This document shows positions 46,827 through 63,920 of a stretch of DNA of 64,000 nt, in pieces. Position 1 is the first letter of the stretch. Every line of letters starts with the position of its first letter. Origin of the DNA: Accumulibacter sp. (lineage in GTDB: Bacteria > Pseudomonadota > Gammaproteobacteria > Burkholderiales > Rhodocyclaceae); contig JACKLW010000005.1 in the NCBI GenBank assembly GCA_024235715.1, positions 682,001 through 746,000 of the forward strand. The letters run 5' to 3'. Position numbers and translations under genes: made by a program. Under the pieces are notes generated by a model, which did not search any database, was not told the origin of the DNA, and saw nothing but the letters and a program-made list of their open reading frames with translations.

Positions 46827-47094
46827 GATAGCAGAAAATGATGTTGGTGATGGCAGCTCTGACTTACGTTTCCAGCATCGAGAAGCACCCATGGCGTGAG
46901 CCATTTCGCGCGTTTCCGACGGCGTTTCCTGGAATTTTGAACGGACTTTGAACGCTATTTGTGTGCCCGCGTGTCGTACAGACAGGTAGTGACCGAGACG
47001 TGCTGACTCCACACGAATACGAAACCATTGCCAGCGCTCCCGGCTGGTCGCCGACGCTGCGTCCGCGCGCAAGCGGCACCGGCAAGAGGCGGTG

Positions 47095-47103
47095 GGGGGT
47101 GAT
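47095..47103 (+). promoter_or_regulatory. Ribosome binding site deciding the hyfB start
   Basis: GGGGGTGAT differs by one base from the ideal GGAGGTGAT and lies 6 bp before GTG 47110, favouring that codon over GTG 47092. Confidence 0.7.
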
Positions 47104-47109
47104 CGACCA

Positions 47110-49139
47110 GTGACCGGCGCGAGCGTCTTCCTCGACCCGGCGAGCTGGCGGCATATCGACTGGGTCCTCCTGGCTGTTTCCGCCTGGCTGCTGATTGGCG
47201 TCGCAGGGGTGTTCGGCTTGCACCGCCTGGCCCTGGTGGCCAGAGTGCTGTTTCCCGCCGGCGGGGCCTGCGGCCTGCTCTTGTTCGGCGTCGCTCTGAG
47301 CGCGATCGTCAGCGCGCCGGAGGTGGCGGTGTTGCCCTTGGGGCTGCCAGGTCTGCCCTTCCATTTTCGCCTCGACAGCCTGTCTGCCTTCTTCCTGATG
47401 ATTATCGGCGGCGTTGCGGCCGGTGTGTCGGCGTTCGCGGCCGGCTACTTCCGCAAGGGCGAAGGCACGCCGCCCGGCTTGCTGGCGCTCGAGTACCACA
47501 TCTTTCTGGCCAGCATGACGCTGGTCGTTCTCGCTGACGACGCCTACGCGTTCATGGTGATGTGGGAAACCATGGCCTTGTCGTCGTTCTTCCTGGTCAC
47601 CGCCAACCATCGCATCGTCGAGATTCAGCGTGCCGGCTACCTCTACCTGCTGATCGCCCATGTCGGTGCTCTCGGTATCCTGTTGTGCTTCGGCATCCTG
47701 CAGGCGGATACCGGCGACTACACTTTTGCCAACATGCGCTCGCAGGAGATTTTGCCCGCGCGGGCGTCGATCGCTTTCCTGCTGGCGCTGTTCGGTTTCG
47801 GCGCCAAGGCGGGCATCGTACCGCTGCATGTATGGCTTCCCGAGGCACATCCGGCGGCGCCGTCGCCCGTCTCCGCGCTGATGAGCGCAGTCATGTTGAA
47901 GACCGCCGTGTACGGCGTACTGCGGGTCGTTTTCGACCTCCTCGGTACGCAGCTGTGGTGGTGGAGTCTGGTGCTGCTTGCGGTCGGTTTGTCGACCGCG
48001 CTGTTCGGTGTCGTCTTCGCCGCGGTGCAGGTCGATATGAAACGCCTGCTGGCCTACTCATCGATCGAAAACATCGGCCTGCTGTTCACCGGCGTCGGGC
48101 TGGCCGTGCTGTTCTCCACGCATGGCATGCATCTGATGGCAGCGCTGGCGCTGACCGCCGTCCTCTATCACGCGGCCAGTCATGCCTTTTTCAAAGGGCT
48201 GCTCTTTGTCGGCACCGGCGCGGTCCTGCATGCCACCCTCGAACGCAACCTCGGCAAGCTCGGTGGTTTGATCCGCTACATGCCCTGGGTGGCCTGGGCC
48301 ATGCTGATTGGTGTTCTGGCCAGCGCCGGCTTGCCGCCCTTTGGTGGCTTTGTCTCCGAGTGGCTGCTGCTGCAGAGCTTCCTCTTCTCGCCGGATTTGC
48401 CGAGTTCATTCCTCAACATGCTGATTCCCGTGGTCGCCGCCCTGATCGCACTGGTCGCAGCGCTCGCCGGCTATACCATGGTCAAGTTCTTCGGGGTCAT
48501 CTTCCTCGGCCAGCCACGCGAGGAGAAGCTGGCGCAGGCGCACGATGCCGGACGGTGGGAGCGCGTCGGCATGGCCTGGCTGGTCGCCGGATGCATTGCG
48601 CTCGGACTGTTTCCCGTACAGTTCATCGCCCTCATCGATCCGGTGACGCAGTTGCTGGTGGGCTCTGGTCTTGCCAGGACGGTCAGCGGCAGCGGCTGGC
48701 TGCTGGCGCCGGTGGCGATCGAGCGCGCGAGCTACGGGCCGGCGATTTTCCTGCTCGGCGTCGCTGCAAGCTTCGCGCTCGCCTTCCTGCTGGTGCGCAT
48801 CTTCTATCACGGCCGCGTGCGGCGCTCGGCGCCCTGGGACTGCGGCTTCCCCTGGCAGAACGCGCGCATGCAGGATACCGCCGAGGGTTTCGGACAACCG
48901 ATTCGGCAAATCTTCGAGCCCTTCTTCCGCTGGGAGCGCGAGTTGCCGACGGCTTTCGATGCCGAGCCACGCTATCGCGTCAGCGTCACCGACCACTTCT
49001 GGCACTGGCTTTACCTGCCGCTGGCCACCGTCGTCGAGCGTCTGGCACGGCTCATCGGGCTGTTGCAGCAGGGACGGATTGCGGTCTACCTGTTGTACAG
49101 CTTCGTGACCCTGATCACCGTGCTGGTGGTGGTCGAGCT

Positions 49140-49143
<4 letters not shown>
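47110..49143 (+). CDS. hyfB: Hydrogenase-4 component B-like antiporter subunit (Ehr complex)
   Basis: About 677 residues with some 16 hydrophobic segments, homologous to HyfB/HycC and complex I NuoL/M/N. The helix-5 glutamate lies in MWETMALSSFFLV, and the channel lysines in FGAKAGIVPLHVWLPEAH and MSAVMLKTAVYG. It should translocate protons or sodium ions across the inner membrane. It starts at GTG 47110 and overlaps the next gene by 4 bp (ATGA). It is first of six tightly packed genes; the complex lacks a functional NiFe site (see the large subunit), so hydrogenase names are used by homology only. Confidence 0.9.
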
Positions 49144-50087
<944 letters not shown>

Positions 50088-50088
50088 G

Positions 50089-50748
50089 ATGAGCGAATTC
50101 GTCGCCCAACTGATCAATCTGCTGGCGTCAACGCTCCTGATCCTCGCCTTCGCGATGATCTCGCAGCGACGGATTCTGTCGCTGATCCACCTGTTCACCG
50201 CGCAGGGTGCAACGCTGGTCGCGGCGACGCTGGTGGTCGGCTACGCGACGGATCAGCCGCACCTCTACCTGTCGGCCGGCATCACCCTGGTGGTCAAGGT
50301 GATCCTGATTCCCTTGTTGCTGCATCGGGTGATCAATCGTCTAAACGTGCGCTGGGACATTGAAACGCTGATCAACATCCCGACGACGATGATCATCGGC
50401 ATCGTGCTGGTCATTTTCGCCTTCGACCTGGCGCTGCCGATCTCCAGGCTGTCGGCCAGTATCGCCCGCGGCACGCTCGGCATCGCGCTGGCCTGCGTGC
50501 TGCTCTCGTTCCTGATGATGATTACCCGGGCCAAGGCGGTGCCACAGGTGATCGGCTTCCTGTCGATGGAAAACGGCCTGTTCTTCGCCGCCACTTCGGC
50601 CACCTACGGCATGCCGATGGTCGTCGAACTCGGCATCGCTCTCGACGTGCTGGTCGGCATACTGATTCTCGGCGTCTTCATGTTCCAGATTCGCGAACAG
50701 TTCGACAGCCTCGACATCAGCCACCTCGAAAAGCTCAAGGAGGACTGA
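50089..50748 (+). CDS. hyfE: Hydrogenase-4 component E-like membrane subunit
   Basis: 219 residues with about seven hydrophobic helices. It is homologous to HyfE, whose C-terminal part resembles NuoK. Conserved segments GFLSMENGLFFAATSATYGMP and VELGIALDVLVGI (containing membrane acidic residues) are present. It overlaps nothing but is one base from hyfC, and its end carries the ribosome site of hyfF (AAGGAGGA). Confidence 0.9.
   Translation: MSEFVAQLINLLASTLLILAFAMISQRRILSLIHLFTAQGATLVAATLVVGYATDQPHLYLSAGITLVVKVILIPLLLHRVINRLNVRWDIETLINIPTTMIIGIVLVIFAFDLALPISRLSASIARGTLGIALACVLLSFLMMITRAKAVPQVIGFLSMENGLFFAATSATYGMPMVVELGIALDVLVGILILGVFMFQIREQFDSLDISHLEKLKED
50737..50744 (+). promoter_or_regulatory. 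Strong ribosome site pointing to a CTG start for hyfF
   Basis: AAGGAGGA is followed after 5 bp by CTG 50750, the only initiator-like codon in that frame until ATG 50879. Confidence 0.65.
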
Positions 50749-50749
50749 C

Positions 50750-52207
50750 CTGGAAACGCTGTTCTACGTCCTCGGCATTCCCCTGCTTGGCAGCCTGGTT
50801 CTGGCGTTCACCGGGCAGCGCGACAGCGCACGCGAAATCAACGTCGCCTTCAGCCTCGCGACTTTCATTGCCACCTGCATGTTGACCGTCGAGATTGTCT
50901 CGGGTGGGCCGCAGCTGGTCTGGCACCACGAGTTCTTCATTGACCCGCTGAACGTCTTCCTGGTCACCCTGACCAGCTTTGTCGGCCTGACCACGGCCAT
51001 CTTCTCGCGGCCTTACATGCGCATCGAGCAGGACCACGGCAAGATGACGCCGCATCGGCAGCGCCTCTACCACAGCATGTATCAATTGTTCAATTTCACC
51101 ATGCTGCTGGCGCTGACCACCAACAACATGGGTATCCTGTGGGTGGCCATGGAGGCGGCGACACTGACCACCGTGCTGCTGGTCAGCGTGTACCGGACCG
51201 CCGCCAGTCTCGAAGCCGCGTGGAAATACTTCATCCTCTGCGGCGTCGGCATCGCCCAGGCCCTGTTCGGGACGGTATTGCTGTACATGGCCGCGGAAAA
51301 AGTGATCGGCACCGAGGCTGGTGCCTTGTTGTGGACCAATCTCGACGCGGTCAAGACACAGCTCGATCCGACCATCATCACCCTGGCTTTCGCTTTCCTG
51401 TTCATCGGCTACGGCACCAAGGTCGGCCTGGTGCCGATGCACAACTGGCTACCGGATGCACACGCGGAGGGACCGACGCCGGTTTCTGCCGTGCTGTCGG
51501 GCCTGCTGTTGAACGTCGCGGTCTATGCCCTCTTGCGCTGCAAGGTGCTTACCGACGGAGCGCTGGGCAACCAGCTCGCCGGCGAGCTGATGATGGGCTT
51601 CGGTCTGCTGTCAGTGGTCGTGGCGGCGTTCTTCCTGTCCCGCCAGAAGGACGTCAAGCGCATGTTTGCCTACTCTTCGATCGAGCACATGGGGCTGATC
51701 ACCTTCGCCTTCGGCATGGGCGGCGCGATCGCCAACTATGCCGGCCTGCTGCACATGACGGTGCATTCGCTGATCAAGTCGGCAATCTTCTTTGCCGTCG
51801 GCCATGCCACGCAGAAAGCCGGAACACAGAACATGGCTGACATCCGCGGGCTCATCAAGGTCAGTCCGCGGCTGGCCTGGGGGATGATGCTCGGCTCGCT
51901 GGCCATTCTCGGGATGCCGCCTTTCGGCGTCTTCGCCAGCGAATTCCTGATTCTCACGACGGCCATGCGCGACCATTCCTGGGCCACGCCGTTTCTGCTG
52001 CTGGCGCTCGGCGTCGCTTTCGCCGCCGTCTTCAGCCGGGTCCAACCGATGGTCTTCGGCGAAACCTCGCTCAGGAAAACATTGGGCCACACGCCAGCAC
52101 TGCTGCCGGTGTTCGCGCACCTGGGTCTGGGCCTGATGCTCGGCCTGTATATCCCGCCGTACCTGCACGACTGGTATCGTCAGGCGGCGGCGATGATCGG
52201 AGGTTGA
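50750..52207 (+). CDS. hyfF: Hydrogenase-4 component F-like antiporter subunit, apparent CTG start
   Basis: About 485 residues from CTG 50750, homologous to HyfF and NuoN/M-type pumps. Starting at ATG 50879 would remove the first transmembrane helix (FYVLGIPLLGSLVLAF), so the CTG, directly behind a strong ribosome site, is favoured; a base error in an ATG is the alternative. The helix-5 Glu lies in VAMEAATLTTVLL, and lysine in YGTKVGLVPMHNWLPDAH. The second channel lysine is replaced by Asn (SGLLLNVAVYALL). hyfG follows 4 bp later. Confidence 0.85.
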   Translation: METLFYVLGIPLLGSLVLAFTGQRDSAREINVAFSLATFIATCMLTVEIVSGGPQLVWHHEFFIDPLNVFLVTLTSFVGLTTAIFSRPYMRIEQDHGKMTPHRQRLYHSMYQLFNFTMLLALTTNNMGILWVAMEAATLTTVLLVSVYRTAASLEAAWKYFILCGVGIAQALFGTVLLYMAAEKVIGTEAGALLWTNLDAVKTQLDPTIITLAFAFLFIGYGTKVGLVPMHNWLPDAHAEGPTPVSAVLSGLLLNVAVYALLRCKVLTDGALGNQLAGELMMGFGLLSVVVAAFFLSRQKDVKRMFAYSSIEHMGLITFAFGMGGAIANYAGLLHMTVHSLIKSAIFFAVGHATQKAGTQNMADIRGLIKVSPRLAWGMMLGSLAILGMPPFGVFASEFLILTTAMRDHSWATPFLLLALGVAFAAVFSRVQPMVFGETSLRKTLGHTPALLPVFAHLGLGLMLGLYIPPYLHDWYRQAAAMIGG

Positions 52208-52211
52208 GGCG

Positions 52212-53774
52212 ATGCAAATCTACGGGTTCAGCCTCGATTGCGAACGCCTGCCGGCACCTCTGCCGATCTGGCGCGCCACGGTGCGCGCCGAAACCTGGCA
52301 GGTGATCGCCCGCGCGCTATCCGAGAACGGCGGACGACTGCTCGCTCTCTGGGGGTCCGATCGCACCGAGGGCGCAGCGGGCGGTCTGGTGATATCGGCG
52401 GCCTACTCCGGTCGCGACGGTCTGCTGTGGATCGATCTGCCACTCGCCGAGCGGGCCGCGACCTATCCTGACCTGCTGCCATTCTTTCCCTGCGCAGGCC
52501 GCCTGCAGCGGGCGGCAGCCGATCTGCTCGGTGTCGTCGCGGAAGGCGTTTGCGACCGGCGCCCGTGGCTCGACCACGGCGCCTGGCCGGAAAACTACCG
52601 GCCGCTGCGCCGTGATCAATCACCGCGAGCCGCTGGTCCACATCGAGAAGTCACCGACTACGCATTCGTTCGCGTCGAAGGCGATGGCGTGCACGAGATC
52701 CCGGTCGGGCCGGTACATGCGGGGATCATTGAACCAGGGCACTTCCGTTTTTCGGTCGTCGGCGAGAAGGTACAGCGCCTTGAGCAACGCCTGGGCTACA
52801 AACACAAAGGGATCGAAAAACGCTTCACCGAGTTGTCCCCACTGCAGGCGCATCGACTGGCCGGGCGGATTTCGGGCGATTCGACGGTTGCTTACACCTG
52901 GGCCTACTGCATGGCGCTGGAATCGCTGGCGGGCTGCCAGATTGCCGCGCGCGCCAGTTGGCTGCGGGCGCTACTGCTCGAACGCGAACGGGTGGCAAAC
53001 CACCTCGGCGACCTCGGCGCACTTGGCAACGATGCGGCGTTCGCCTTCGGGCTGGCCCAGTTCTCGAGGCTCAGGGAAGACTGGCTTCGCCTCTCCAGGG
53101 ACGCTCTTGGTCACCGCCTGCTGATGGACCTTGTCGTTCCGGGTGGCGTGACGGCGGATGTCGATCAAGCGACCGCCGCCAGGCTGGCCGACCAGTGCGA
53201 CCGGATCGAGCGTGAAGTGCGGGAACTGCATCAGGTTTACGACGAGCACCCCGGCCTGCAAGACCGCTTCCTGACCACCGGTCGGGTGTCGCCGGACCTT
53301 GCCGCCCGACTGGGACTCACCGGCCTGGCGGGTCGTGCCAGCGGCCAGGCTGCGGACCTGCGCAGCGATTGGCCCTGGCCGCCCTATGACCAGTTGGATG
53401 TGAAAGTCGCAACGCAGCACAACGGCGACGTCGCCGCCCGCGTCAGCGTACGTTTCGATGAACTGCTCGAATCGCTGCGGCTGATTCGCGTGCTGCTTTC
53501 CGGGCTTCCAGAAGGTCCGACGCGCAGCGAATTGAGGTTACCGAACAAGGTCGCGTTCGGTGCCGGATGGGTCGAAGGCTGGCGCGGCGAGATCTTCGTC
53601 GCCCTCGAATATGATGGTCAGCAAGGCGCCAACTGTATCCGCCGCTGTCACTGCCACGACCCCTCGTGGCAGAACTGGCCGGTACTCGAACACGCAGTCA
53701 TGGGAAACATCGTTCCCGACTTTCCGTTGATCAACAAATCCTTCAACCTCAGCTACTCGGGACACGACCTCTGA
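52212..53774 (+). CDS. hyfG: Hydrogenase large-subunit-like protein without NiFe ligands (Ehr, HyfG-like)
   Basis: 520 residues: a NuoC-like N-terminal part (about 1-135) fused to a NuoD/HycE-like domain. In true hydrogenases the nickel is held by RxCGxC near the start of that domain and DPCxxC at the end. Here the first reads GRISGDST and the second NKSFNLSYSGHDL, so all four cysteines are gone. The protein therefore cannot make a NiFe centre and belongs to the energy-converting-hydrogenase-related (Ehr) class. GGAGG precedes ATG 52212. Its stop overlaps hyfI by one base. Confidence 0.9.
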   Translation: MQIYGFSLDCERLPAPLPIWRATVRAETWQVIARALSENGGRLLALWGSDRTEGAAGGLVISAAYSGRDGLLWIDLPLAERAATYPDLLPFFPCAGRLQRAAADLLGVVAEGVCDRRPWLDHGAWPENYRPLRRDQSPRAAGPHREVTDYAFVRVEGDGVHEIPVGPVHAGIIEPGHFRFSVVGEKVQRLEQRLGYKHKGIEKRFTELSPLQAHRLAGRISGDSTVAYTWAYCMALESLAGCQIAARASWLRALLLERERVANHLGDLGALGNDAAFAFGLAQFSRLREDWLRLSRDALGHRLLMDLVVPGGVTADVDQATAARLADQCDRIEREVRELHQVYDEHPGLQDRFLTTGRVSPDLAARLGLTGLAGRASGQAADLRSDWPWPPYDQLDVKVATQHNGDVAARVSVRFDELLESLRLIRVLLSGLPEGPTRSELRLPNKVAFGAGWVEGWRGEIFVALEYDGQQGANCIRRCHCHDPSWQNWPVLEHAVMGNIVPDFPLINKSFNLSYSGHDL

Positions 53775-54298
53775 TGTGGCGCATCCTCAAACAGATCGCG
53801 AAAAACGGCATCCGCAGCGAAGCGCCACCCGAGTGCAGCGATGAGCTGCGCGTCGAAGGGGAGCGCATTCAGCACGCACTCCTCGAGATTCTCGGCCAGG
53901 CGCTGAGCATTCGCCAGGTCGACGCCGGATCGTGCAACGGCTGCGAGCTGGAAATCAACGCGCTCAACAATCCTTACCACAACATCGAAGGACTGGGCAT
54001 CAGGTTCGTCGCCAGCCCACGCCACGCCGACATGCTGCTGGTGACCGGGCCGGTTTCACGGCACATGGAGCAGGCCTTGCGCCGCACCTACGATGCCACT
54101 CCCGACCCCAAGCTGGTTGTCGCAGTCGGCGACTGCGGTTGTGACGGTGGCATTTTCGGCGAGAGCTACGCCAGCTGCGGACGCGTGGCCAATGTCATTC
54201 CGGTCGACGTCGCGGTGCCTGGCTGCCCGCCGCCACCGATCGAGATTGTGCGCGGCATTCTGACCGCGGTGCAACGATGCCGAACCTTGCCAGGATAG
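53774..54298 (+). CDS. hyfI: Hydrogenase small-subunit-like / NuoB-like Fe-S protein (HyfI-like)
   Basis: 174 residues, homologous to HyfI and NuoB. The four cysteines of the N2-type [4Fe-4S] cluster are kept: CNGCE, GDCGCDGG and PGCPPPP. It should still carry electrons next to the degenerate large subunit. ATG 53774 overlaps the hyfG stop; a longer frame upstream is not used. It is last in the operon. No ferredoxin-like HyfH/NuoI subunit is present, so the electron route into this complex is unknown. Confidence 0.92.
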   Translation: MWRILKQIAKNGIRSEAPPECSDELRVEGERIQHALLEILGQALSIRQVDAGSCNGCELEINALNNPYHNIEGLGIRFVASPRHADMLLVTGPVSRHMEQALRRTYDATPDPKLVVAVGDCGCDGGIFGESYASCGRVANVIPVDVAVPGCPPPPIEIVRGILTAVQRCRTLPG

Positions 54299-54624: not shown

Positions 54625-56097
54625 ATGCTGAAAACTCTGTTGCTACTGCCGCTTCTTGGTGCGGGCCTCCTGTTGCTCTTGCCGAGCCGCCGCATCGACC
54701 TGCTGCGCAATGTCGCGAGCATGGTCGCTGCAGCGACCACGCTCTGTGCCGGCCTCCTGCTGCTGAACTTCGACCCGGCCAGCAGCGAAATGCAGTTCTT
54801 CGAGACAAGGCCCTGGAACCCGCGTGTCGGATCGAACCTGGCGCTTGGCGTCGACGGCATCTCGATGCCGATGCTGCTGCTGGCAAGCGTGCTGTGCTTC
54901 GTCGCCATCTTCACGTCGACCGGCGTGCGCAACGGCGCCAAGCTCTACTTCTCGCTGATCCTGGCGCTCGAAAGTTCGATGCTGGTGGTCTTCGCCGCAC
55001 GCGACTGGTCGCTGTTCTACGTTTTCTGGGAACTGACGCTGATCCCGCTGTTCTTCCTGATCGACCGCCTCGGTGGCGCCAATCGTCACCGGGCGGCGCT
55101 CAATTTCGTCCTGTATACGCTCGGTGGCTCGGTATTCATGCTGATCGCCCTGCTGCTGCTCTACGACGTCGCCCCCGAGCACAGTTTCGCGATGGCCGAC
55201 ATGGCCGCCGGCAGCGCGCAGTTGCCGGAGAGGACTCAGATCCTGGTCTTTCTCGGACTGCTGCTCGGGTTCGGCGTCAAGATGCCGATCGTCCCGCTGC
55301 ACGGCTGGCTGCCGCTGGCGCACGTCGAAGCGCCGAGTCCGATCTCGGTGCTGCTCTCCGGGATTCTGCTCAAGATGGGCGCCTACGGGCTGATTCGCGC
55401 GGCCTGGACGCTGCCGGGAGCAGTACAGGCCCTGCAGGACTGGCTGGCGCTGCTGGCCCTGGTCAGCGTGGTGTACGGCGCGGTGCTGGCCTGGCGACAG
55501 AGCGATCTGAAAGCGATGATCGCCTACTCGTCGATCTCGCACATGGGCGTCGTGCTGCTCGGCATCGCCGCGCTCAACGAAGCCGGGCTGAACGGCGCCG
55601 TGACGCAGATGGTCGCGCACGGCCTGGCAGCCGGTCTGCTGTTCATGCTCATCGGCCTGCTCTACGAACGAACGCACAGCCGCGACCTCGCGGCCTTCGG
55701 TTCGCTGAACCGCGTCGCGCCGCGCTTCGCGGCGTTCATCGTCCTCACCCTGCTGGCGTCGGTCGGCCTGCCGGGCAGTGCCGGCTTCATCGCCGAACTG
55801 CAGGTGCTGATCGGCGCCTATGGCCGCTGGGGCGGCTGGCTGGCAGTGCTCTCGATCGGCGTCCTGATTTCCGCCGCCTATGCCCTGCGCGCAGTTCGCC
55901 GCCTGTCGACCGGTCCCGAGAGACCTTTCGGCGGCGCAGCCGCCGGCGTTGCCACTTTCGCCGACCTCAATCGCGGCGAAACGGCGACTGCCGCCGCGCT
56001 CAGCGCGGGAATCGTCATCATCGGCTTCTACCCGGGCCCCCTGCTCGGCCTGATGGCCTCGTCGGTGAGCCGACTGGCGCAGCAGTTCGGCGGCTGA
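54625..56097 (+). CDS. NuoM-like proton antiporter subunit of the DAB-like operon (1)
   Basis: 490 residues with about 14 membrane helices. It resembles NuoM more than NuoL: helix-5 glutamate in FYVFWELTLIPLFFLI, channel lysines in FGVKMPIVPLHGWLP and SGILLKMGAYGLIRA, so the ion path looks intact. The ribosome site before ATG 54625 is weak. Its stop is immediately followed by the dabA GTG. Nothing else of complex I is encoded in this operon, so it presumably serves DabA as an energy-coupling subunit (inference). Confidence 0.88.
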   Translation: MLKTLLLLPLLGAGLLLLLPSRRIDLLRNVASMVAAATTLCAGLLLLNFDPASSEMQFFETRPWNPRVGSNLALGVDGISMPMLLLASVLCFVAIFTSTGVRNGAKLYFSLILALESSMLVVFAARDWSLFYVFWELTLIPLFFLIDRLGGANRHRAALNFVLYTLGGSVFMLIALLLLYDVAPEHSFAMADMAAGSAQLPERTQILVFLGLLLGFGVKMPIVPLHGWLPLAHVEAPSPISVLLSGILLKMGAYGLIRAAWTLPGAVQALQDWLALLALVSVVYGAVLAWRQSDLKAMIAYSSISHMGVVLLGIAALNEAGLNGAVTQMVAHGLAAGLLFMLIGLLYERTHSRDLAAFGSLNRVAPRFAAFIVLTLLASVGLPGSAGFIAELQVLIGAYGRWGGWLAVLSIGVLISAAYALRAVRRLSTGPERPFGGAAAGVATFADLNRGETATAAALSAGIVIIGFYPGPLLGLMASSVSRLAQQFGG

Positions 56098-59000
56098 GTG
56101 AGCACGCCCGTGCAGCCTCCCCGAAGCGGCGCGGCAGATGCTGCGCCGATCGACCCGCTGGCGCGGATCGCCGCCTGCCTGGCGCATCTCGAACATGTGC
56201 TGCCGGCACAGGCACCGCTACGCGACTTCGTCCACCACAATACCCTGCACGCCTTCCAGCATCTGCGCTTCGCCGACGCCTGCCGCGAGGCTTCCCGGCT
56301 GACCGGCGCCAGCACCTGGCTTGACGAGGATCGCTGTCGCCAGCTCTTCCGGCAGGGACGCGTCAGCTCGGCCGACCTCGACGCCGCCCTGAGGCAGGTG
56401 CCGGCGGCGCGGGCCGACGAAGCCCTCCTTTCTGTCGCGACGCGCGAACTGCACCGTGGTGAGGTCCTGCAGGTGGCGCTGCGCTATCCGGCGCGCAGGC
56501 TTTCGGCAGCGCAGTTGCGCTGGCAGGCCGAGGAAGAAGCGGCTTTCGAGCGCTGGCAGGACGACCTCGCCCCGGACACGCGGCAGCGTCTGCTGACCGC
56601 CGCCAGTGCTGACGGTCGTGGCGAGGCAGCGGCGGTCGCCGATCTGTGGGATGCGGCGCGCGCGTTGCGGGCGCCTTCGGCCGGAGATCCAGTCGAACCC
56701 GAGCATGCTGGAGGCCATGTTGCCTGGCCCGGCCCCGCGGTGGGACAGCCTTCACCGGAAGCCGCAACAGCGCTCTGGCAGGACCTGCTTGGCGGCCTGG
56801 GAGAGCGCTGGACGGTGGCCGCCCTACTGGCCCACCTGAGCGGCGACGACCTGCGCGAGGCGCTGCAGCCGACGCTGATTCGTCATCTCGGCGCGCATCT
56901 CGACCAGGGACTGGCGGCCTGGCGAAATCCGGCGCGGACCGAGGGCTTCCTTGCCGCCTGGCGGCTGAGTTGCGGCACCGACTGGACCTGGGAGCTGGAC
57001 GAGTTCGTCGGCGCACGCGACGAGATCGCGCAACTGCCTGATGAGCCGCGGCAGGTGATTGCCGGCGAACTGCTGCGCCTCGGTATCGAGGCCGAGAAGT
57101 GGGACGCCTATCTGCAAGGACTGGTGCTCGAACTGCCGGGCTGGGCGGGTATGTGCTGCTGGCGAGAGTCGCACCCGCGTAGCGGTGAACCGCCGGTCGC
57201 CCTGGCCGATTTCCTGGCCGTGCGGCTGGTTCTCGAACGGCTCTGCGCGGCACAGCTGATGCGTCGCATCTGGGATCTGCCGCTCAGTCTCGCCGAACTC
57301 GGCGACTACTTTGCGGCCAACGCCGCCGAACTGTTCGTGCGCCATGCCCATGGCCGCGGGGAACTGGACGAAGAACTCCTCGAAGCGGTGACGCCACATC
57401 TCGGCGCAGCATCCAACGCCACGGCCGGCGTCTGGCAGCGCTTCGCCGCCCGCCTCGCTGCCCGCGGCGCGTCGCCCCGCGGCGATTCACGAAACGCCGC
57501 GGACCCGGCAAGCGATCGCCTGGCCGTTGCTGCCTGGCCGCTGTTCGTCCTCGCACAGCGCCTGGGTCTCGGCGCGCGGGATCTGCGCGAGATCGGCGTA
57601 TCCGGCGCGCAGACCCTGCTCGACTGCGCCGGGTCGCTGGACCGCAACCAGCGCGGCGAGGTCTGGCTGCTGGCCTACGAACGGCACTACCGGCAACAGA
57701 TCCTGGCCGCGCTGACAGCCAATCACGGTCGCGCCGCGGCGCTCGCCGGCCGGGCCGAGGCACAGTTCGTGTTTTGCATGGATGACCGGGAGGAAGGCTC
57801 GCGCCGACACCTCGAAGAAGTCAATCCGGCTTTCGAGACCTTCGGCGCGGCCGGTTTTTTTGGCGTGCCGATGCTCTGGCAAGGTCTCGACGACGAGACA
57901 GCGGCGGCGCTTTGCCCGATCGTCGTGCGACCGACAAACGCGGTGAGCGAGGAAGTGCCGACCGGCAGCGAGGCAGCACACCGGCGCCACCGGCGGCGTC
58001 TGAAATTGCGGCTCGACTGGCGCGAGCGGCTGCACCAGGGCAGCCGCCGCGGCTTGCTGCAGACAGCGTTGCTGGCCGCCGCCTCGGGCCCCGTGGCCTT
58101 GCTGACCCTGCTCGCCAGGACGCTTGCGCCGGGCCGCTTCGGCGAACTGCTGGCGGCTCGCCGCGAGGCCTTCGACCAGCCCCTTGCGGGAACACTCCGG
58201 CTGACGGCCGACGCCGGCGAGGCCGGCCGCGTCGCCAGCGCCGACGCGCCGCGCCTCGGATTCAGCGAGGACGAGCAGCTGACGCGGGTCGCCGGCTTCC
58301 TGCGCAGCATCGGCCTGACCGACCATTTCGCGCCGCTGGTGGTGATCGTCGGTCACGGCTCGGACAGCCGCAACAACCCGCATCTGGCGGCCTACGATTG
58401 CGGCGCCTGTTCCGGCCGGCACGGCGGGCCGAATGCGCGGGTTTTTGCAGCCATGGCCAACCGGCCGGCAGTTCGCGCCGGACTCGCCGAGCTGGGCCTG
58501 CCGATTCCCGAAACAACCCATTTCGTCGGTGCCGAGCACAACACCTGCGACGAGAGCTATACCTGGTATGACCTCGAACATCTGCCGGAAAGTCACCAGC
58601 AGGCCTTCGCGGCATTGCGCCGCGACTGTGCGCAGGCGACCAGCCTGCATGCCGTCGAGCGCTGTCGCCGCTTTGCCTCGGCGCCGCGCCATCCCTCACC
58701 GGCGCAGGCGCGGCAGCATCTGGCAGACCGCTGCCAGGATCTCGCGCAGGCGCGACCCGAACTCGGGCATGCGACGGTCGCCACGGCTTTCGTCGGCCGC
58801 CGGACGATGAGCCGGCGCGCCTTTTTCGATCGCCGCGTCTTCCTGATTTCCTACGACCCGCTTCCCGATGTCGAGGGCCGCATTCTCGAAGCGACCCTGC
58901 TCGCCGCCGGCCCGGTCGGCGCCGGCATCAATCTCGAGTATTACTTCTCGACGGTCGATAACGAGGGTTTCGGCTGTGGAACCAAGGTCATGCACAACCT

Positions 59001-59382
59001 GGCCGGGCTGTTCGCCGTGATGCAAGGCGCCAGTTCGGACCTGCGCACCGGCCTGCCGCTGCAGATGATCGAAATCCACGAGCCGATGCGGCTGCTGGTG
59101 ATCGTCGAGCAGACGCTGGAATTGCTGACCGCCATCTACCTGCGGCAGCCACCGCTGCAGGAACTGATCGGCAACGGCTGGATCGTCCTGGCCGCCAAGC
59201 ACCCGCACACCGGCGCCATTCATCTCTTCGATCCGGCAGGCGGCTGGCAGCCATGGCATGACGAGGCGGCCGGCGACACGACGCCACCGCTGCCCGAAGT
59301 CGAGCGTTCGATCGACTGGTTCGCCGGCCAGCGCGAGGCCCTGCCGCCGGCGCTCCTGCGCCACCCGCCGCTGCCCGCATGA
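56098..59382 (+). CDS. dabA: Probable inorganic carbon transporter subunit DabA (DUF2309/UPF0753)
   Basis: 1094 residues, larger than many DabA proteins. DabA is a beta-carbonic-anhydrase-like zinc protein thought to hydrate CO2 vectorially when energised by its membrane partner. The residues corresponding to the zinc site are all present: C560 and D562 (FCMDDRE), H753 (VGHGSDS) and C768 (DCGACSG). The 15-residue His-to-Cys spacing is the same as I recall for the characterised DabA. The N-terminal FVHHNTLHAF is a subfamily signature. No signal peptide; peripheral on the cytoplasmic face. The GTG start abuts the previous stop and the end overlaps dabB by 4 bp. Confidence 0.9.
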   Translation: MSTPVQPPRSGAADAAPIDPLARIAACLAHLEHVLPAQAPLRDFVHHNTLHAFQHLRFADACREASRLTGASTWLDEDRCRQLFRQGRVSSADLDAALRQVPAARADEALLSVATRELHRGEVLQVALRYPARRLSAAQLRWQAEEEAAFERWQDDLAPDTRQRLLTAASADGRGEAAAVADLWDAARALRAPSAGDPVEPEHAGGHVAWPGPAVGQPSPEAATALWQDLLGGLGERWTVAALLAHLSGDDLREALQPTLIRHLGAHLDQGLAAWRNPARTEGFLAAWRLSCGTDWTWELDEFVGARDEIAQLPDEPRQVIAGELLRLGIEAEKWDAYLQGLVLELPGWAGMCCWRESHPRSGEPPVALADFLAVRLVLERLCAAQLMRRIWDLPLSLAELGDYFAANAAELFVRHAHGRGELDEELLEAVTPHLGAASNATAGVWQRFAARLAARGASPRGDSRNAADPASDRLAVAAWPLFVLAQRLGLGARDLREIGVSGAQTLLDCAGSLDRNQRGEVWLLAYERHYRQQILAALTANHGRAAALAGRAEAQFVFCMDDREEGSRRHLEEVNPAFETFGAAGFFGVPMLWQGLDDETAAALCPIVVRPTNAVSEEVPTGSEAAHRRHRRRLKLRLDWRERLHQGSRRGLLQTALLAAASGPVALLTLLARTLAPGRFGELLAARREAFDQPLAGTLRLTADAGEAGRVASADAPRLGFSEDEQLTRVAGFLRSIGLTDHFAPLVVIVGHGSDSRNNPHLAAYDCGACSGRHGGPNARVFAAMANRPAVRAGLAELGLPIPETTHFVGAEHNTCDESYTWYDLEHLPESHQQAFAALRRDCAQATSLHAVERCRRFASAPRHPSPAQARQHLADRCQDLAQARPELGHATVATAFVGRRTMSRRAFFDRRVFLISYDPLPDVEGRILEATLLAAGPVGAGINLEYYFSTVDNEGFGCGTKVMHNLAGLFAVMQGASSDLRTGLPLQMIEIHEPMRLLVIVEQTLELLTAIYLRQPPLQELIGNGWIVLAAKHPHTGAIHLFDPAGGWQPWHDEAAGDTTPPLPEVERSIDWFAGQREALPPALLRHPPLPA

Positions 59383-60932
59383 ACGTCGTCGACGCACTGC
59401 TCGGCGCACTCGCCGTCAGCACCCGCCTGGTGTGGCTGGTGCCGGTGCTGCCATTGCTGGCGGCGACGGCAATCGGCATGCGCATGTTCTTCCGGTCCCA
59501 GCACGCTGACCAGCACGAGCCGCTGACCGCCGGCCTGGCCAGCGGCGCCGCGCTCGCTGCCCTGCTCCTGCTGCTGCTCTGCGACCTGGCGGCGGTGCTC
59601 ACTGGCGTCCCGGAGAGCGTGCGCGCCGGCGAATGGCTGGCGATCGACCGGGTGCCGGTCGGCCTGTCGTTCGCGCTCGACGCGGTCAGCCTGCCGATGG
59701 CCACGCTGGTGACCCTGATCGGCTGGATCGCGCTGCGCTTCTCGGCGACCTACCTGCACCGCGAGAGAGGCTTCCAGCGCTTCTTCCTCGGCATGAGCCT
59801 GTTTCTCGCCGGCATGCTGCTGATCGTCCTGGCCGGCAACGCCGTACTTGCTTTCGTTGGCTGGGAACTGGCCGGCATCAGCTCCTGGCTGCTCATCGCC
59901 TACGCCTGGGAGAGACCCGTGGCGACCGGCAACGCCTTGTTCGTCTTCGTCGCCAACCGCGTCGGTGACGCCGGTTTTCTGCTCGCCATCGGTCTCGCGG
60001 TATGGTCGGTGGGCAGTGTCGAATGGACCGGGCTGGCCGGCGACGGAAGAATGAGCGTGGTCAGCGCACGCCTGCTGGCCGCCGGTTTCGTGCTTGCCGC
60101 GCTGGTCAAGTCGGCGCAGCTGCCGTTCTCACCGTGGATCGCGCGCGCGCTCGAAGGACCCACGCCATCGTCGGCCGTCTTCTACGGCTCGCTGATGGTA
60201 CATGCCGGCGTCTTCCTGCTTTTTCGCCTGCAGGAACTGCTCGTGCAGGTGCCCGACATGCTCGCGCTGCTGGTCGTCATCGGCCTGGCGACCAGCTTGT
60301 ACGGCGGCCTTTGCGCGCTGGTGCAGAGTGACGTCAAGTCGGCGCTGATCTTCTCGACGGTGACCCAGGTCGGGCTGATGTTCATCCTCTGCGGCTTTGG
60401 CCAGTTTGCGCTGGCGGTTGGCTACTCCGGGCTGCATGCGGCATGGCGCGCATACCAGTTTCTGCTGGCACCGAGCTACATGCAGCTGGTTCGCCGCCCG
60501 GCGCGCCCGGTCCCGCGCTGGCTGGCCGGGCAGCACTGGCTGTACACGGCGGCACTGCAACGCTTCTGGATCGAAGCGCTGGCGGGCAGCCTGCTGACGC
60601 GGCCGACGCTGGCGCTGGGCAGGGATGTGCGCGCGCTCGACGAGCGCGTCATTGACGGACTGGTCGGCACGCCGCGCGGTGACCAGGGGGCTGTCGCAGG
60701 CGACGCCAGCGCCGACGAGCTGATTCGCGGCCACGGCCTCGCCGGTCGCACCCTGCTGCTCTTCGCCGAGCGCCTGCAGGCGCTCGAGAACCGTCTGCTG
60801 CTCAGCGATGACGACGCAATGATGAAGCCGCTGCGCCTTGTCGGCCGCTATGCGGACGCCATCGAATCCCTGCTCGAACAGCCGCGCTACCTGATGCTGA
60901 TGGTGATGGCGACTTTCGTGGTGATCCTGTGA
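59379..60932 (+). CDS. dabB: DabB-like / NuoL-like membrane subunit
   Basis: 517 residues, the NuoL-type protein coupled to DabA by an ATGA overlap. The helix-5 glutamate lies in FVGWELAGISSWLL, and the ion-path lysine and histidine in ALVKSAQLPFSPWI and GSLMVHAG. After about residue 360 the normal NuoL pump helices give way to a long, mostly polar region, with one last hydrophobic helix at the end (YLMLMVMATFVVIL). That is the shape of DabB proteins. It should dock DabA and supply the ion gradient. Confidence 0.88.
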   Translation: MNVVDALLGALAVSTRLVWLVPVLPLLAATAIGMRMFFRSQHADQHEPLTAGLASGAALAALLLLLLCDLAAVLTGVPESVRAGEWLAIDRVPVGLSFALDAVSLPMATLVTLIGWIALRFSATYLHRERGFQRFFLGMSLFLAGMLLIVLAGNAVLAFVGWELAGISSWLLIAYAWERPVATGNALFVFVANRVGDAGFLLAIGLAVWSVGSVEWTGLAGDGRMSVVSARLLAAGFVLAALVKSAQLPFSPWIARALEGPTPSSAVFYGSLMVHAGVFLLFRLQELLVQVPDMLALLVVIGLATSLYGGLCALVQSDVKSALIFSTVTQVGLMFILCGFGQFALAVGYSGLHAAWRAYQFLLAPSYMQLVRRPARPVPRWLAGQHWLYTAALQRFWIEALAGSLLTRPTLALGRDVRALDERVIDGLVGTPRGDQGAVAGDASADELIRGHGLAGRTLLLFAERLQALENRLLLSDDDAMMKPLRLVGRYADAIESLLEQPRYLMLMVMATFVVIL

Positions 60933-62428
60933 ACGAAGTGCACTGGGCCGCGCTCGCCGGCTACCCCGTGCTGGCAGCGCTGCAGCTGCTGCCGCTGGCC
61001 GCTGCGCTGTTGTTGACGATCATCCGCAAGACCGCCCTGGCGGTCGCCGTCGGTCGCCTGTTCGCCGTTGCCGAACTGCTGGTTGCGCTCGATCTCTACC
61101 TGCGCATCGACGTCTCGACCGGCGTCATGCAGTTCGCCGAGCGGCCCGATCTGCTCGCCTATCATGCCGCCGCCGACGGCATCAGCGTCCTGTTCATCCT
61201 GCTCACGGCGCTGCTGGGCGTGTTGCTCGCGTTTTACGGAATGGCGCGCCAGCAGGTCACGCCGGTACACCTGCTTGGCGTGCTGTTGCTCATCGAGTCG
61301 TCGCTGATGACCATGCTGACGACGATGAACCTGCTCTGGTTTGCCGCCGCATCGGCGCTGCAACTGGCGCTGATCGGCTACCTGCTGTGGCGCTGGGCTT
61401 CGGCAAGCGAGGAGAAGCTGGCGCTTTCACGCTTCCTGCAGTACCAGTTCTTCGGCTGGTGCCTGTTCGTCGCCGGCGCCGTGGTCGTCGTCTGGAGCCA
61501 CGCCGACGTCGCCGGCGGCAGCTGGAGCTTCGACGTCTTCGACCTGCTGGCAACGCCGCAGATCGGCAAGTACCAGTCGGCGGCCTTCTATCTCTTGTTC
61601 TACGGCCTGGCTGTGCGCACGCCGCTCTTTCCGCTGCATGGCTGGCTGCCCAACGCCGCCGGCTACGGGCTGATCGCCGTCGGCCCGGTACTCCTGCTCG
61701 GCGTCAAGGTGGGGATCTACGGCATGGCACGTTTTCTGATGCCGCTGACCAGCGACGCCTTGTTCGTCTGGCAGCCCTATGTGGTGGCCTTCGCCATGGT
61801 CGGCGTTTTCTACGCGGCGCTGCTCGCTTTCCGGCAGGTGAACCTGCGCCGCCTGTTGGCCTTTGCGGTGGTCAGCCATACCAGCCTGATCGTCATCGGC
61901 CTGTTCACCCTGCACCCCGCCGGCATCCAGGGCGCGCTGCTGCTGGCGGTCAACTTCGGTCTGGCAATCACCGTCATGCTGCTGATGATCGGCTACGTCT
62001 ACCGTCGCGCCGGAACCACCAACCTCGACCGGCTCGGCGGCCTCTTCGACCGCGTCCCCTTCATCGCCATCGCCTTCCTGCTCGGTGGCCTGGCGCTGCT
62101 CGGCATGCCCGGAACGCCGGGTTTCGATGCCGTCCATCTGGTGCTCGAAGCGTCGATCGAGACCTTCGGTGCCCTGCCGACGATTGCCACCGCACTCGGC
62201 AACGTTGCCGCCGCCGGCTTCCTGCTGTGGGCTTTTCAGCGCGCTTTTCTGGCACAGCGGCCAAAGGACCTGCCGGCACGCCGAATCGCCCGCACCAGCG
62301 CCATGGAGTATGCCGTCGGCGGCGCCGCGTTGCTGGTCCTGCTGGCTGCCGGCTTCTACCCCGAGCCCTGGCTAAGGCTGACCGATACCGCGACGCAGGC
62401 GCTCGCCGCCCATTTCAGACATGGCTGA
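60929..62428 (+). CDS. Antiporter-like membrane subunit with degenerate ion path
   Basis: 499 residues, about 14 hydrophobic helices, related to NuoM/NuoN. At the helix-5 position, where relatives have WE, it reads LLWFAAASALQLALIG, so the key glutamate is missing. The first channel lysine is replaced by Arg in AVRTPLFPLHGWLP, though the lysine in LLGVKVGIYG remains. It probably acts as a structural rather than pumping subunit (inference). ATG overlap with dabB and an 8-bp overlap with the next gene show tight coupling. Confidence 0.85.
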   Translation: MNEVHWAALAGYPVLAALQLLPLAAALLLTIIRKTALAVAVGRLFAVAELLVALDLYLRIDVSTGVMQFAERPDLLAYHAAADGISVLFILLTALLGVLLAFYGMARQQVTPVHLLGVLLLIESSLMTMLTTMNLLWFAAASALQLALIGYLLWRWASASEEKLALSRFLQYQFFGWCLFVAGAVVVVWSHADVAGGSWSFDVFDLLATPQIGKYQSAAFYLLFYGLAVRTPLFPLHGWLPNAAGYGLIAVGPVLLLGVKVGIYGMARFLMPLTSDALFVWQPYVVAFAMVGVFYAALLAFRQVNLRRLLAFAVVSHTSLIVIGLFTLHPAGIQGALLLAVNFGLAITVMLLMIGYVYRRAGTTNLDRLGGLFDRVPFIAIAFLLGGLALLGMPGTPGFDAVHLVLEASIETFGALPTIATALGNVAAAGFLLWAFQRAFLAQRPKDLPARRIARTSAMEYAVGGAALLVLLAAGFYPEPWLRLTDTATQALAAHFRHG

Positions 62429-63920
62429 CCTGGCTTCCTATCCCCTGCTCAGCACGCTGCTGGCCTTGCCGGTGCTCGGCGCGCTGGCCACCACCCTGCT
62501 GCGCCGTGCGCCGTGGGCGCAGCGGATGGCTCTGGGCAGCACGCTGCTCACGCTGTTGCAGTCGCTGCTCATCGTCGCCGCTTTCGATGGCCAGGACGCC
62601 GGCTTCCAGTTGCTCGACTCGGCGACCTGGATCGGCGGGCTGAACATCGCCTATCTGGTCGGTGTCGACGGCATTTCGCTGCTCTTTCTCCCGGCAACGG
62701 CCCTGCTCTTCTGCGCTGCAGTGCTCGCCGGCTGGCGTATTCGTGCCACGGCTTCGCCGCTCTCCCCGGGACTGTACTTCGCCTTGCTGTTGTGGCTTGA
62801 GGCGGCGACGCTCGGTGTGTTCTGCGCGCTCGACGTCGTTTTCTTCTTCTTCTGCTGGGAACTGACGCTGCTGCCGCTGTACTTCCTGATCAGCCTGTGG
62901 GGCGTCGGCAGCAGCCGCCAGACCGCGGCCGTACGTTACTTCCTGCTCATGCTGGCGAGCGGCGTGCCGCTGCTCTTCGGCCTGCTGGCACTGGCCTTCG
63001 GGCACGCCGCGAGTGCCGGCTCGCTGGTCTTCGACCTGCCAACGCTGCTGGCGACACCACTGCCGGAGGGAACGCAATATGCGGTATTCCTGCTGCTGCT
63101 CGCCGGCTTCGCCGCCAAGGTGCCGCTGGTCCCGCTGCATACCTGGCTGCCTGCGCTGGCCATGGGCGCACCGGCGGCAGTCACCGCGCTGATCGTCGGC
63201 CTGAAGCTCGGCGCCTTTGGCCTGATCCGCCTGGCCATTCCGCTGGCGCCGATCGCCGCGCGCGACCTGCACTGGCTGCTCGCCGGCTGCGGCACGCTGG
63301 CCATCCTCTACGGCGGCGTGGCGGCGATTGCGCACAGCAATCTGCGCGGCGTACTGGCGTACTCAAGCCTGTCACACGTCGGACTGGTGGTGCTCGGTCT
63401 GGCGACTTTCTCGGCATCGGCGCTGCAGGGCGCCCTGCTGCAGTTGCTCAATTTCAGCGTCGCCGCCGCTGGCGGCTTCCTGGCGCTGGCCTTCCTGCAG
63501 CGGCGCAGCGGCTCGACCGATATTGCGCAACTCGGCGGCGTCATGCGCAGCATGCCGCTGCTGTCCGGCTGCTTCCTGTTGTTCGGCCTGGCCGGCATCG
63601 GCCTGCCGGGCACCAGCGGTTTCCCCGGCGAGTTGCTGATCATCGTCGCCGCCCTGCACAGCCATACGGGCGCCGGCCTGGCAGCGCTGTTCGGTACGGT
63701 GCTCGCCGCTGCCGCCTTTTTGGCGCCTTTCCGGCGCGCTTTCCTCGGGCCGCTGCGCAATGCCGATGTCGCGGCAGGCCGCGATCTGCTGCCGCGCGAA
63801 AAGGCAATCCTCCTGCTGCCTGCCTTACTGATCCTGGTGGTTGGCCTTCATCCGATGCCGATACTGGAATTGCTGCGACCGACCGCCGAGGCATGGGTGG
63901 CGGCGCTGGCCGGCCTGTAG
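62421..63920 (+). CDS. NuoM-like proton antiporter subunit of the DAB-like operon (2)
   Basis: 499 residues with about 14 helices. The helix-5 glutamate is present in FFFFCWELTLLPLYFL, and channel lysines in FAAKVPLVPLHTWLP and IVGLKLGAFGLIRL. It is closest in plan to the first antiporter gene of this operon, suggesting an old duplication. Its start overlaps the preceding gene by 8 bp. The operon may continue to the right beyond the window. Confidence 0.88.
   Translation: MADLASYPLLSTLLALPVLGALATTLLRRAPWAQRMALGSTLLTLLQSLLIVAAFDGQDAGFQLLDSATWIGGLNIAYLVGVDGISLLFLPATALLFCAAVLAGWRIRATASPLSPGLYFALLLWLEAATLGVFCALDVVFFFFCWELTLLPLYFLISLWGVGSSRQTAAVRYFLLMLASGVPLLFGLLALAFGHAASAGSLVFDLPTLLATPLPEGTQYAVFLLLLAGFAAKVPLVPLHTWLPALAMGAPAAVTALIVGLKLGAFGLIRLAIPLAPIAARDLHWLLAGCGTLAILYGGVAAIAHSNLRGVLAYSSLSHVGLVVLGLATFSASALQGALLQLLNFSVAAAGGFLALAFLQRRSGSTDIAQLGGVMRSMPLLSGCFLLFGLAGIGLPGTSGFPGELLIIVAALHSHTGAGLAALFGTVLAAAAFLAPFRRAFLGPLRNADVAAGRDLLPREKAILLLPALLILVVGLHPMPILELLRPTAEAWVAALAGL

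Follow-up and report, generated by a model that had tools for sequence, protein, structure and literature searches.

DAB pumps are one known bacterial way to concentrate CO2, and their only solved member is DAB2 of Halothiobacillus neapolitanus (DabA2-DabB2, PDB 9rd0; PMC13144422). DAB2 has two subunits only, a DabA of the PF10070 family with a Cys/His/Cys plus Asp-Arg site and an adjacent NuoL-like DabB. In DAB1 of the same organism (Hneap_0907-0909) a third gene accompanies those of DabA and DabB; its product is described as a small transmembrane protein (PMC13144422), unlike the three NuoM-like subunits treated here. A CO2-hydrating protein coupled to NuoL/NuoM-like subunits is also found in the cyanobacterial NDH-1MS complexes (NDH-1_3/NDH-1_4), which comprise 20-21 subunits and need reduced ferredoxin (PMC8438413). 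Finally, the COGNAT paper of 2017 described the family of ybcC-nuoL operons (ybcC = dabA). It noted NuoM (COG1008) and SulP (COG0659) as frequent neighbours where ybcC is upstream of the nuoL homologue, in YbcC clade C, and suggested that a system with more membrane genes moves more ions (PMC5700660). Here we have analysed a stretch of 64,000 nucleotides from an Accumulibacter sp. genome (assembly GCA_024235715.1; G000:C5:682001-746000), hereafter the window, in which dabA and dabB are joined by three genes for NuoM-like proteins, named M1, M2 and M3 (Table 1). Based on gene order, subunit trees and residue conservation, we consider it probable that these genes encode a five-subunit DAB, in which DabA on a shortened NuoL-like DabB, together with three NuoM-lineage subunits, would perform proton-driven CO2 hydration.

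The five genes are tightly packed. The M1 stop codon TGA is directly followed by the GTG start of dabA, the DabA/DabB and DabB/M2 junctions are 4-base overlaps (ATGA and GTGA, respectively), and M2 and M3 overlap by 8 bases. This agreed with an earlier, sequence-only reading of the window, which had proposed a five-gene operon with overlapping or abutting genes. A sequence scan returned no promoter-like sites against 0.6 expected and nine terminator-like sites against 6.5 expected. The genome (4.14 Mb, 90.5% complete) has a single PF10070 match, and the window DabA was nearest to Candidatus Accumulibacter sequences among the matches listed in a GTDB scan, with 76% identity in the best listed segment.

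Both the subunit order and the DabA and DabB assignments of the sequence-only reading were upheld. The antiporter make-up, as judged from the tree and fold matches, is three subunits of the NuoM lineage and a shortened one, DabB, of the NuoL lineage; NCBIfam profiles likewise place M1, M2 and M3 closest to NuoM. The only PDB entry matched by the DabA sequence at E 0.001 was DabA2 (9rd0_A), and DabB matched 9rd0_B at E 4.1e-26, its profile and fold being nearest to NuoL. The AlphaFold2 model of DabB had a predicted local distance difference test score (pLDDT) of 85, with a weakly modelled C-terminal part, and all 50 Foldseek matches listed for it were NuoL-type chains of complex I/NDH, many of them over ~360 residues. 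The set resembles the complex I membrane arm; unlike complex I, it includes no NuoH-like or redox-subunit (NuoB, C, D, I) domain. Unlike Mrp antiporters, the five genes match only PF10070, PF00361 and PF00662, with no small Mrp subunits, and the genome's own MrpA and MrpD, which score over the NCBIfam cut-offs, lie on contig C8.

Table 1. Position and profile matches of the five genes in the window
Feature	Coordinates	Strand	Matches
M1, NuoM-like antiporter subunit, 490 aa	54625..56097	+	TIGR01972 487.9 bits; PF00361
DabA, beta-carbonic-anhydrase-like subunit, 1094 aa	56098..59382	+	PF10070 790 bits, E 2.5e-237
DabB, 517 aa, NuoL-like over about residues 1-370	59379..60932	+	PF00361; best NCBIfam model NuoL, under model cut-off
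M2, altered NuoM-like subunit, 499 aa	60929..62428	+	PF00361; NuoM model 268.8 bits, barely over the cut-off of 263.8
M3, NuoM-like subunit, 499 aa	62421..63920	+	TIGR01972 404.9 bits; PF00361

The same five-gene order was then searched for in other genomes. Of 369 genomes from the class to which the window belongs, 83 contain PF10070, and longer flanks were taken for 59 of these (60 regions), leaving out 24, the M2-bearing G094 among them. Loci were assigned to the five-gene type when their DabA scored at least 640 bits against the window protein, and to a comparison group (n = 43) when it did not. Seventeen of the 59 class genomes had such a window-like DabA. Together with 80 loci from the GTDB scan they gave 97 five-type DabA rows, 95 of them distinct; the scan set is the best 80 of at least 589 DabA relatives and so favours near relatives, and a few genomes may be present in both samples.

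The gene order recurred, which excludes chance. In the GTDB set the five genes stood in order at 57 of 80 loci, 18 loci had short flanks (limits set at 1500 bases upstream and 4700 downstream) and five deviated, through DabB-M2 fusion in three cases, a doubled DabA-DabB in one and DabA alone in one. In two of the short-flanked loci (L127 and L130) the sequence at hand deviates from the order as well. Among the named hosts of the 57 are Accumulibacter, Rhodocyclaceae, Sulfuricellaceae, Thiobacillus, Nitrosomonas, Nitrosospira, Nitrotoga, Methylobacter, Crenothrix, Thiodiazotropha and Magnetococcales. Among the class genomes, 11 of 17 had the same order, counting one with M1 cut at the contig start and one with M3 in two frames. 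Two of the other six are cut at contig ends (L073, L079), and in the remaining four the genes are rearranged, with all parts still present: in G074, dabA and M1-DabB-M2-M3 lie on separate contigs, in G330 the parts are spread over three places, and in G068 and G199 DabB is fused to M2, M1 and M3 being encoded at other sites. At L180 (Thiothrix sp. STA_22) the genes read M1-DabA-DabB-DabA-DabB-M2-M3, the pair being doubled inside the five-gene frame.

The fusions and the distribution of M2 linked the subunits further. Two PF00361 stretches were present in the DabB-M2 fusions of L126, L130, L134 and L139, such fusions being found in the Competibacter group, and in the two fusions placed in the antiporter tree (L050, L134) the halves grouped with the DabB and M2 clades, the C-terminal half being M2. 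When an M2 profile was run on the 369 genomes, with at most four candidates scored per genome, 17 genomes reached at least 540 bits and the next matches at most 323 bits. DabA was present in 16 of these 17 (G094 being counted here with the five-gene type), the exception being G215, which is 77% complete and has M2 at a contig start. The association gave a Fisher p of ~1e-22, a value that overstates independence as the genomes are related. Near the 43 comparison DabA loci, no M2 or M3 was found at the same threshold, and M1-class neighbours occurred only at L065 and L085, in complex I or Mrp-type clusters.

The trees that the sequence-only reading had called for pointed the same way. In a quick tree of 86 antiporter proteins, M1, M2, M3 and this DabB each formed one side of a branch with a support of 98-100 (M1 100, M3 98), M1-M3 grouping with NuoM and DabB with NuoL. 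In a FastTree of 75 DabA rows, the five-type DabA formed one side of a branch with a support of 85, adjoining L080 and L082. The conserved order, the fusion in some lineages and the near confinement of M2 to DabA-bearing genomes support the multi-subunit, complex-I-style module with DabA that had been proposed.

In the window, 326 bp separate M1 from the end of an upstream hydrogenase-4-like cluster (47092-54298), and M1, M2 and M3 could belong to this Hyf-like complex, or to a separate antiporter, and merely share an operon with dabA and dabB. We regard this as highly improbable. Hyf-like genes lie near only 2 of the 88 five-type loci with M1, window included (upstream DNA being short in some), and ownership of M1-M3 by a Hyf complex was set aside on this count. 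The DabB-M2 fusions and the tracking of DabA by M2 across the 369 genomes also speak against it. The upstream cluster itself contains HyfB and HyfF, both over the NCBIfam cut-offs, a NuoH-family gene, a HyfE-like gene under the cut-off, and NuoCD-like and NuoB-like genes; similar HyfB/HyfF-like genes stand upstream of the five genes at L115. The genome has eight PF00361 matches, six in the window plus MrpA and MrpD on C8, and the one NuoH-family match that it has belongs to the Hyf-like cluster. This PF00361 search found no canonical NuoL, NuoM or NuoN of complex I, an absence that is uncertain at the completeness of the genome.

We have then compared the DabA active site with that of DAB2, with reference positions taken from the cryo-EM paper (PMC13144422). 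The sequence-only reading had recognised four zinc ligands at the expected spacing. The residues and the spacing were confirmed, since C560, D562, H753 and C768 of the window align with C351, D353, H524 and C539 of DAB2 with identical spacings of 2 and 15; the number of ligands is three, as the zinc of DAB2 is held by two Cys and one His, with the Asp forming part of an Asp-Arg dyad (PMC13144422), the counterpart of which in the window is D562 and R564. In the five-type DabA the Cys351, His524 and Cys539 positions were kept in 97/97 and those of Asp353 and Arg355 in 96/97. The window protein has E565 at the Ser356 position and is longer than DabA2, which has 870 residues.

Other positions differed consistently from DAB2. 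The membrane finger Glu444, whose loss abolished DAB2 activity (PMC13144422), was Glu in 40 of 43 comparison rows and in none of the 97 five-type rows, of which 16 had Asp (methanotroph, nitrifier and Competibacter-type loci, G136 and G051) and 81 a non-acidic residue (A661 in the window). The AlphaFold2 model of DabA (pLDDT 83) has two helices, one basic (625-648) and one hydrophobic (653-676), at the position of the DAB2 membrane finger. With this model, Foldseek gave no match at E 0.001 or better, and DAB2 was absent from the 50 matches listed out of 140 (library to April 2026). The Leu658 position was Leu in 41/43 comparison rows and His in 97/97 five-type rows (H891 in the window). Leu658 is strictly conserved among 150 homologues, the position being Gln or His in beta-carbonic anhydrases, and its change did not impair the in vivo activity of DAB2 (PMC13144422).

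A His at the canonical Gln/His position of beta-carbonic anhydrases, together with the retained complex-I-like coupling residues described below, would also be compatible with a complex that runs in reverse or on another reaction, the DabA chemistry driving ion export as proposed in PMC5700660. This seems quite improbable to us. By established thermodynamics the free energy of CO2 hydration is too small to export several protons, and DAB2 takes up CO2 in a manner sensitive to carbonyl cyanide m-chlorophenyl hydrazone (PMC13144422).

For the membrane subunits, length limits (400 residues for DabB, 430 for the M subunits) removed 2/88 DabB, 2/88 M1, 2/74 M2 and 8/72 M3 sequences from the residue counts; the comparison set includes mis-picked NuoL genes of other clusters as the DabB rows of L065 and L085, and L045 and L086 overlap in one genome. 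In DabB, the Ile151 position was Glu in 85 of 86 five-type sequences (E163 in the window) and in 4 of 43 comparison rows, namely the two mis-picked NuoL genes and two rows of the sister clade. The His260 and Lys347 positions were Tyr (Y269) and Arg (R357), respectively, in 86/86, and the positions of NuoL Lys399/Asp400 were gaps in all 86. In DAB2, I151E halved the growth yield, and H260A and K347A impaired it (PMC13144422). The window DabB carries a NuoL-type ion-pair set composed of E163, R194, D197 and K244, and five-type DabB as a whole keeps the Glu-Arg-Asp-Lys pattern. In complex I, sets of this kind are believed to allow lateral signalling between subunits.

M1 and M3 retain the four key residues of Escherichia coli NuoM (E144, K234, K265 and E407), as E136, K219, K250 and E391 in M1 (86/86) and as E147, K233, K262 and E404 in M3 (64/64). 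M2 differs, with Arg in place of the Lys234 of transmembrane helix 7 (TM7; R230) and a kept Lys265 (K260), both in 72/72, and without Glu at the E144 and E407 columns. The sequence-only reading had called M2 degenerate. It is better described as altered, as R230, K260 and H403 are invariant in all 72 sequences, which rules out a decaying gene; near TM12, Asp400 (71/72) and Glu407 (69/72) flank His403 (window numbering). A simple loss of the TM5 Glu was also dropped as an explanation, because at the position equivalent to E. coli NuoN Glu133, which lies two residues past the NuoM E144 column in the M2 alignment, 40 of the 72 sequences have Glu, 28 Gln, 3 His and one Asp (Q145 in the window).

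The departures of M2 from the NuoM pattern, and the fact that two-subunit DABs work alone (PMC13144422), would fit an ordinary two-subunit DabA-DabB pump to which M1, M2 and M3 were added as scaffold or stability subunits that move no ions. We hold this to be unlikely. Scaffolds would not need the four NuoM residues that M1 and M3 keep without exception, M2 has invariant and near-invariant polar residues of its own, including an acidic residue at the NuoN Glu133 column in 41/72, and the DabA-DabB pair has lost some of the channel residues of DAB2.

In the five-subunit DAB that we favour, the zinc-dependent, beta-carbonic-anhydrase-like DabA would sit on the shortened NuoL-like DabB, itself coupled side by side to the three NuoM-lineage subunits, as in a complex I antiporter arm without the redox arm. 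This antiporter array would take the place of the single DabB channel, and proton entry under the proton motive force would power a one-way hydration of CO2 to cytoplasmic bicarbonate, which could feed the carboxylases of the cell. Because M1 and M3 have the full key-residue set, and thus putatively complete proton paths, protons probably enter there, with DabB and M2 relaying a conformational or electrostatic signal to DabA. The paths are placed in M1/M3, and the relay in DabB and M2, because the DabA-DabB pair mostly lacks the finger acid and always lacks the NuoL TM12 charges, and keeps the Glu-Arg-Asp-Lys set. From these sequence patterns we infer the assembly of all five proteins in one complex, CO2 as the substrate, the relay and the stoichiometry.

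A more specific version can be put forward only tentatively. It pictures a complex-I-like machine that is free of redox chemistry and ends in a carbonic anhydrase. DabA-DabB would no longer have a proton exit of its own (finger acid, TM12 charges, His260 and Lys347) and would depend on the M1/M3 paths, M2 would be an Arg relay between DabB and M3, and each CO2 hydration would be driven by at least two protons that enter through the NuoM-like subunits. With the His at the beta-carbonic anhydrase Gln/His position, this might constitute a second class of vectorial carbonic anhydrase, distinct in mechanism, with nitrifiers, methanotrophs, sulfur oxidisers, Magnetococcales and Accumulibacter as its hosts.

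Several observations weigh against a five-subunit, proton-driven CO2 pump. Residues important in DAB2 (finger Glu444, His260 and Lys347) are changed here, and therefore the DAB2 mechanism cannot carry over unaltered. An Asp is kept at the finger position in 16/97. Two sister-clade genomes, G248 (L082, 88% complete) and G070 (L080, 78% complete), share Tyr260, Arg347 and His658 and lack Glu444, and a search of G248 showed no antiporter gene other than those of complex I and DabB. The residue changes are thus not strictly tied to the extra subunits and may predate them. The five-type DabA of G051 and G319 comes without a high-scoring M2, both DabA loci being cut at a contig end, and at L171 DabA stands alone within a 21 kb locus. 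Spending four or more protons on each CO2 would be more expensive than needed. RuBisCO family proteins (PF00016) were found in 14/17 five-type genomes, so that three had none, in 44/66 other DabA genomes and in 129/286 DabA-less genomes; these counts, in which G094 is grouped with the comparison set, are upper bounds, as PF00016 also includes RuBisCO-like proteins. The enrichment in the other DabA genomes means that the link is not special to the five-gene type.

At L080 (G070), DabA-DabB is followed by one very divergent antiporter-like gene of 504 residues (68 bits to the M3 profile), an arrangement that is a possible intermediate between two- and five-gene DABs. The window genome encodes one RuBisCO large subunit of 459 residues, the size of which suggests form II, with CbbQ-domain and VWA-domain proteins adjoining.

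The sequence-only reading had further suggested an undescribed DAB variant, and this held in part. The NuoM neighbours and the idea that ion number follows gene number are already in PMC5700660, which in its available text defines no five-gene set and describes neither subunit clades nor a residue signature nor a role in CO2 hydration or uptake. No multi-NuoM DAB form was seen in the available text of PMC10880623 and PMC12628692, and no description of the five-gene set or of its residue signature was found in the open-licence literature, a scope that does not include the main DAB paper (Desmarais 2019). The gene association was therefore glimpsed before; within the literature searched, the fixed five-subunit set with its co-occurrence, its residue signature and the fusion of DabB to M2 appears to be new. 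A widespread variant with three more ion-channel-like subunits, in which channel residues important in DAB2 are lost, would offer a natural way to study the coupling of ion flow to CO2 hydration, and also how complex-I-type subunits communicate without electron transfer. It suggests that results obtained with DAB2 ought not to be extended to every DabA protein.

Another multi-subunit DabA setting was observed at L085 (G025), where a comparison-type DabA lies between a SulP transporter and an Mrp-like cluster of MnhE, MbhD/E, MnhB, Oxidored_q2 and three PF00361 proteins. Among the neighbours of the five genes, one family occurs at five loci (example L122 7249-8457, with no Pfam match for that example). 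Another similarity cluster, also spanning five loci, includes a protein of L176 (7045-8190) with a match to LCIB/C-type beta-carbonic anhydrase just over the cut-off (PF18599, 25.6 bits), the Pfam search having covered the L176 member only. A family with one Pfam-tested SulP member was present near 22 of the 80 loci.

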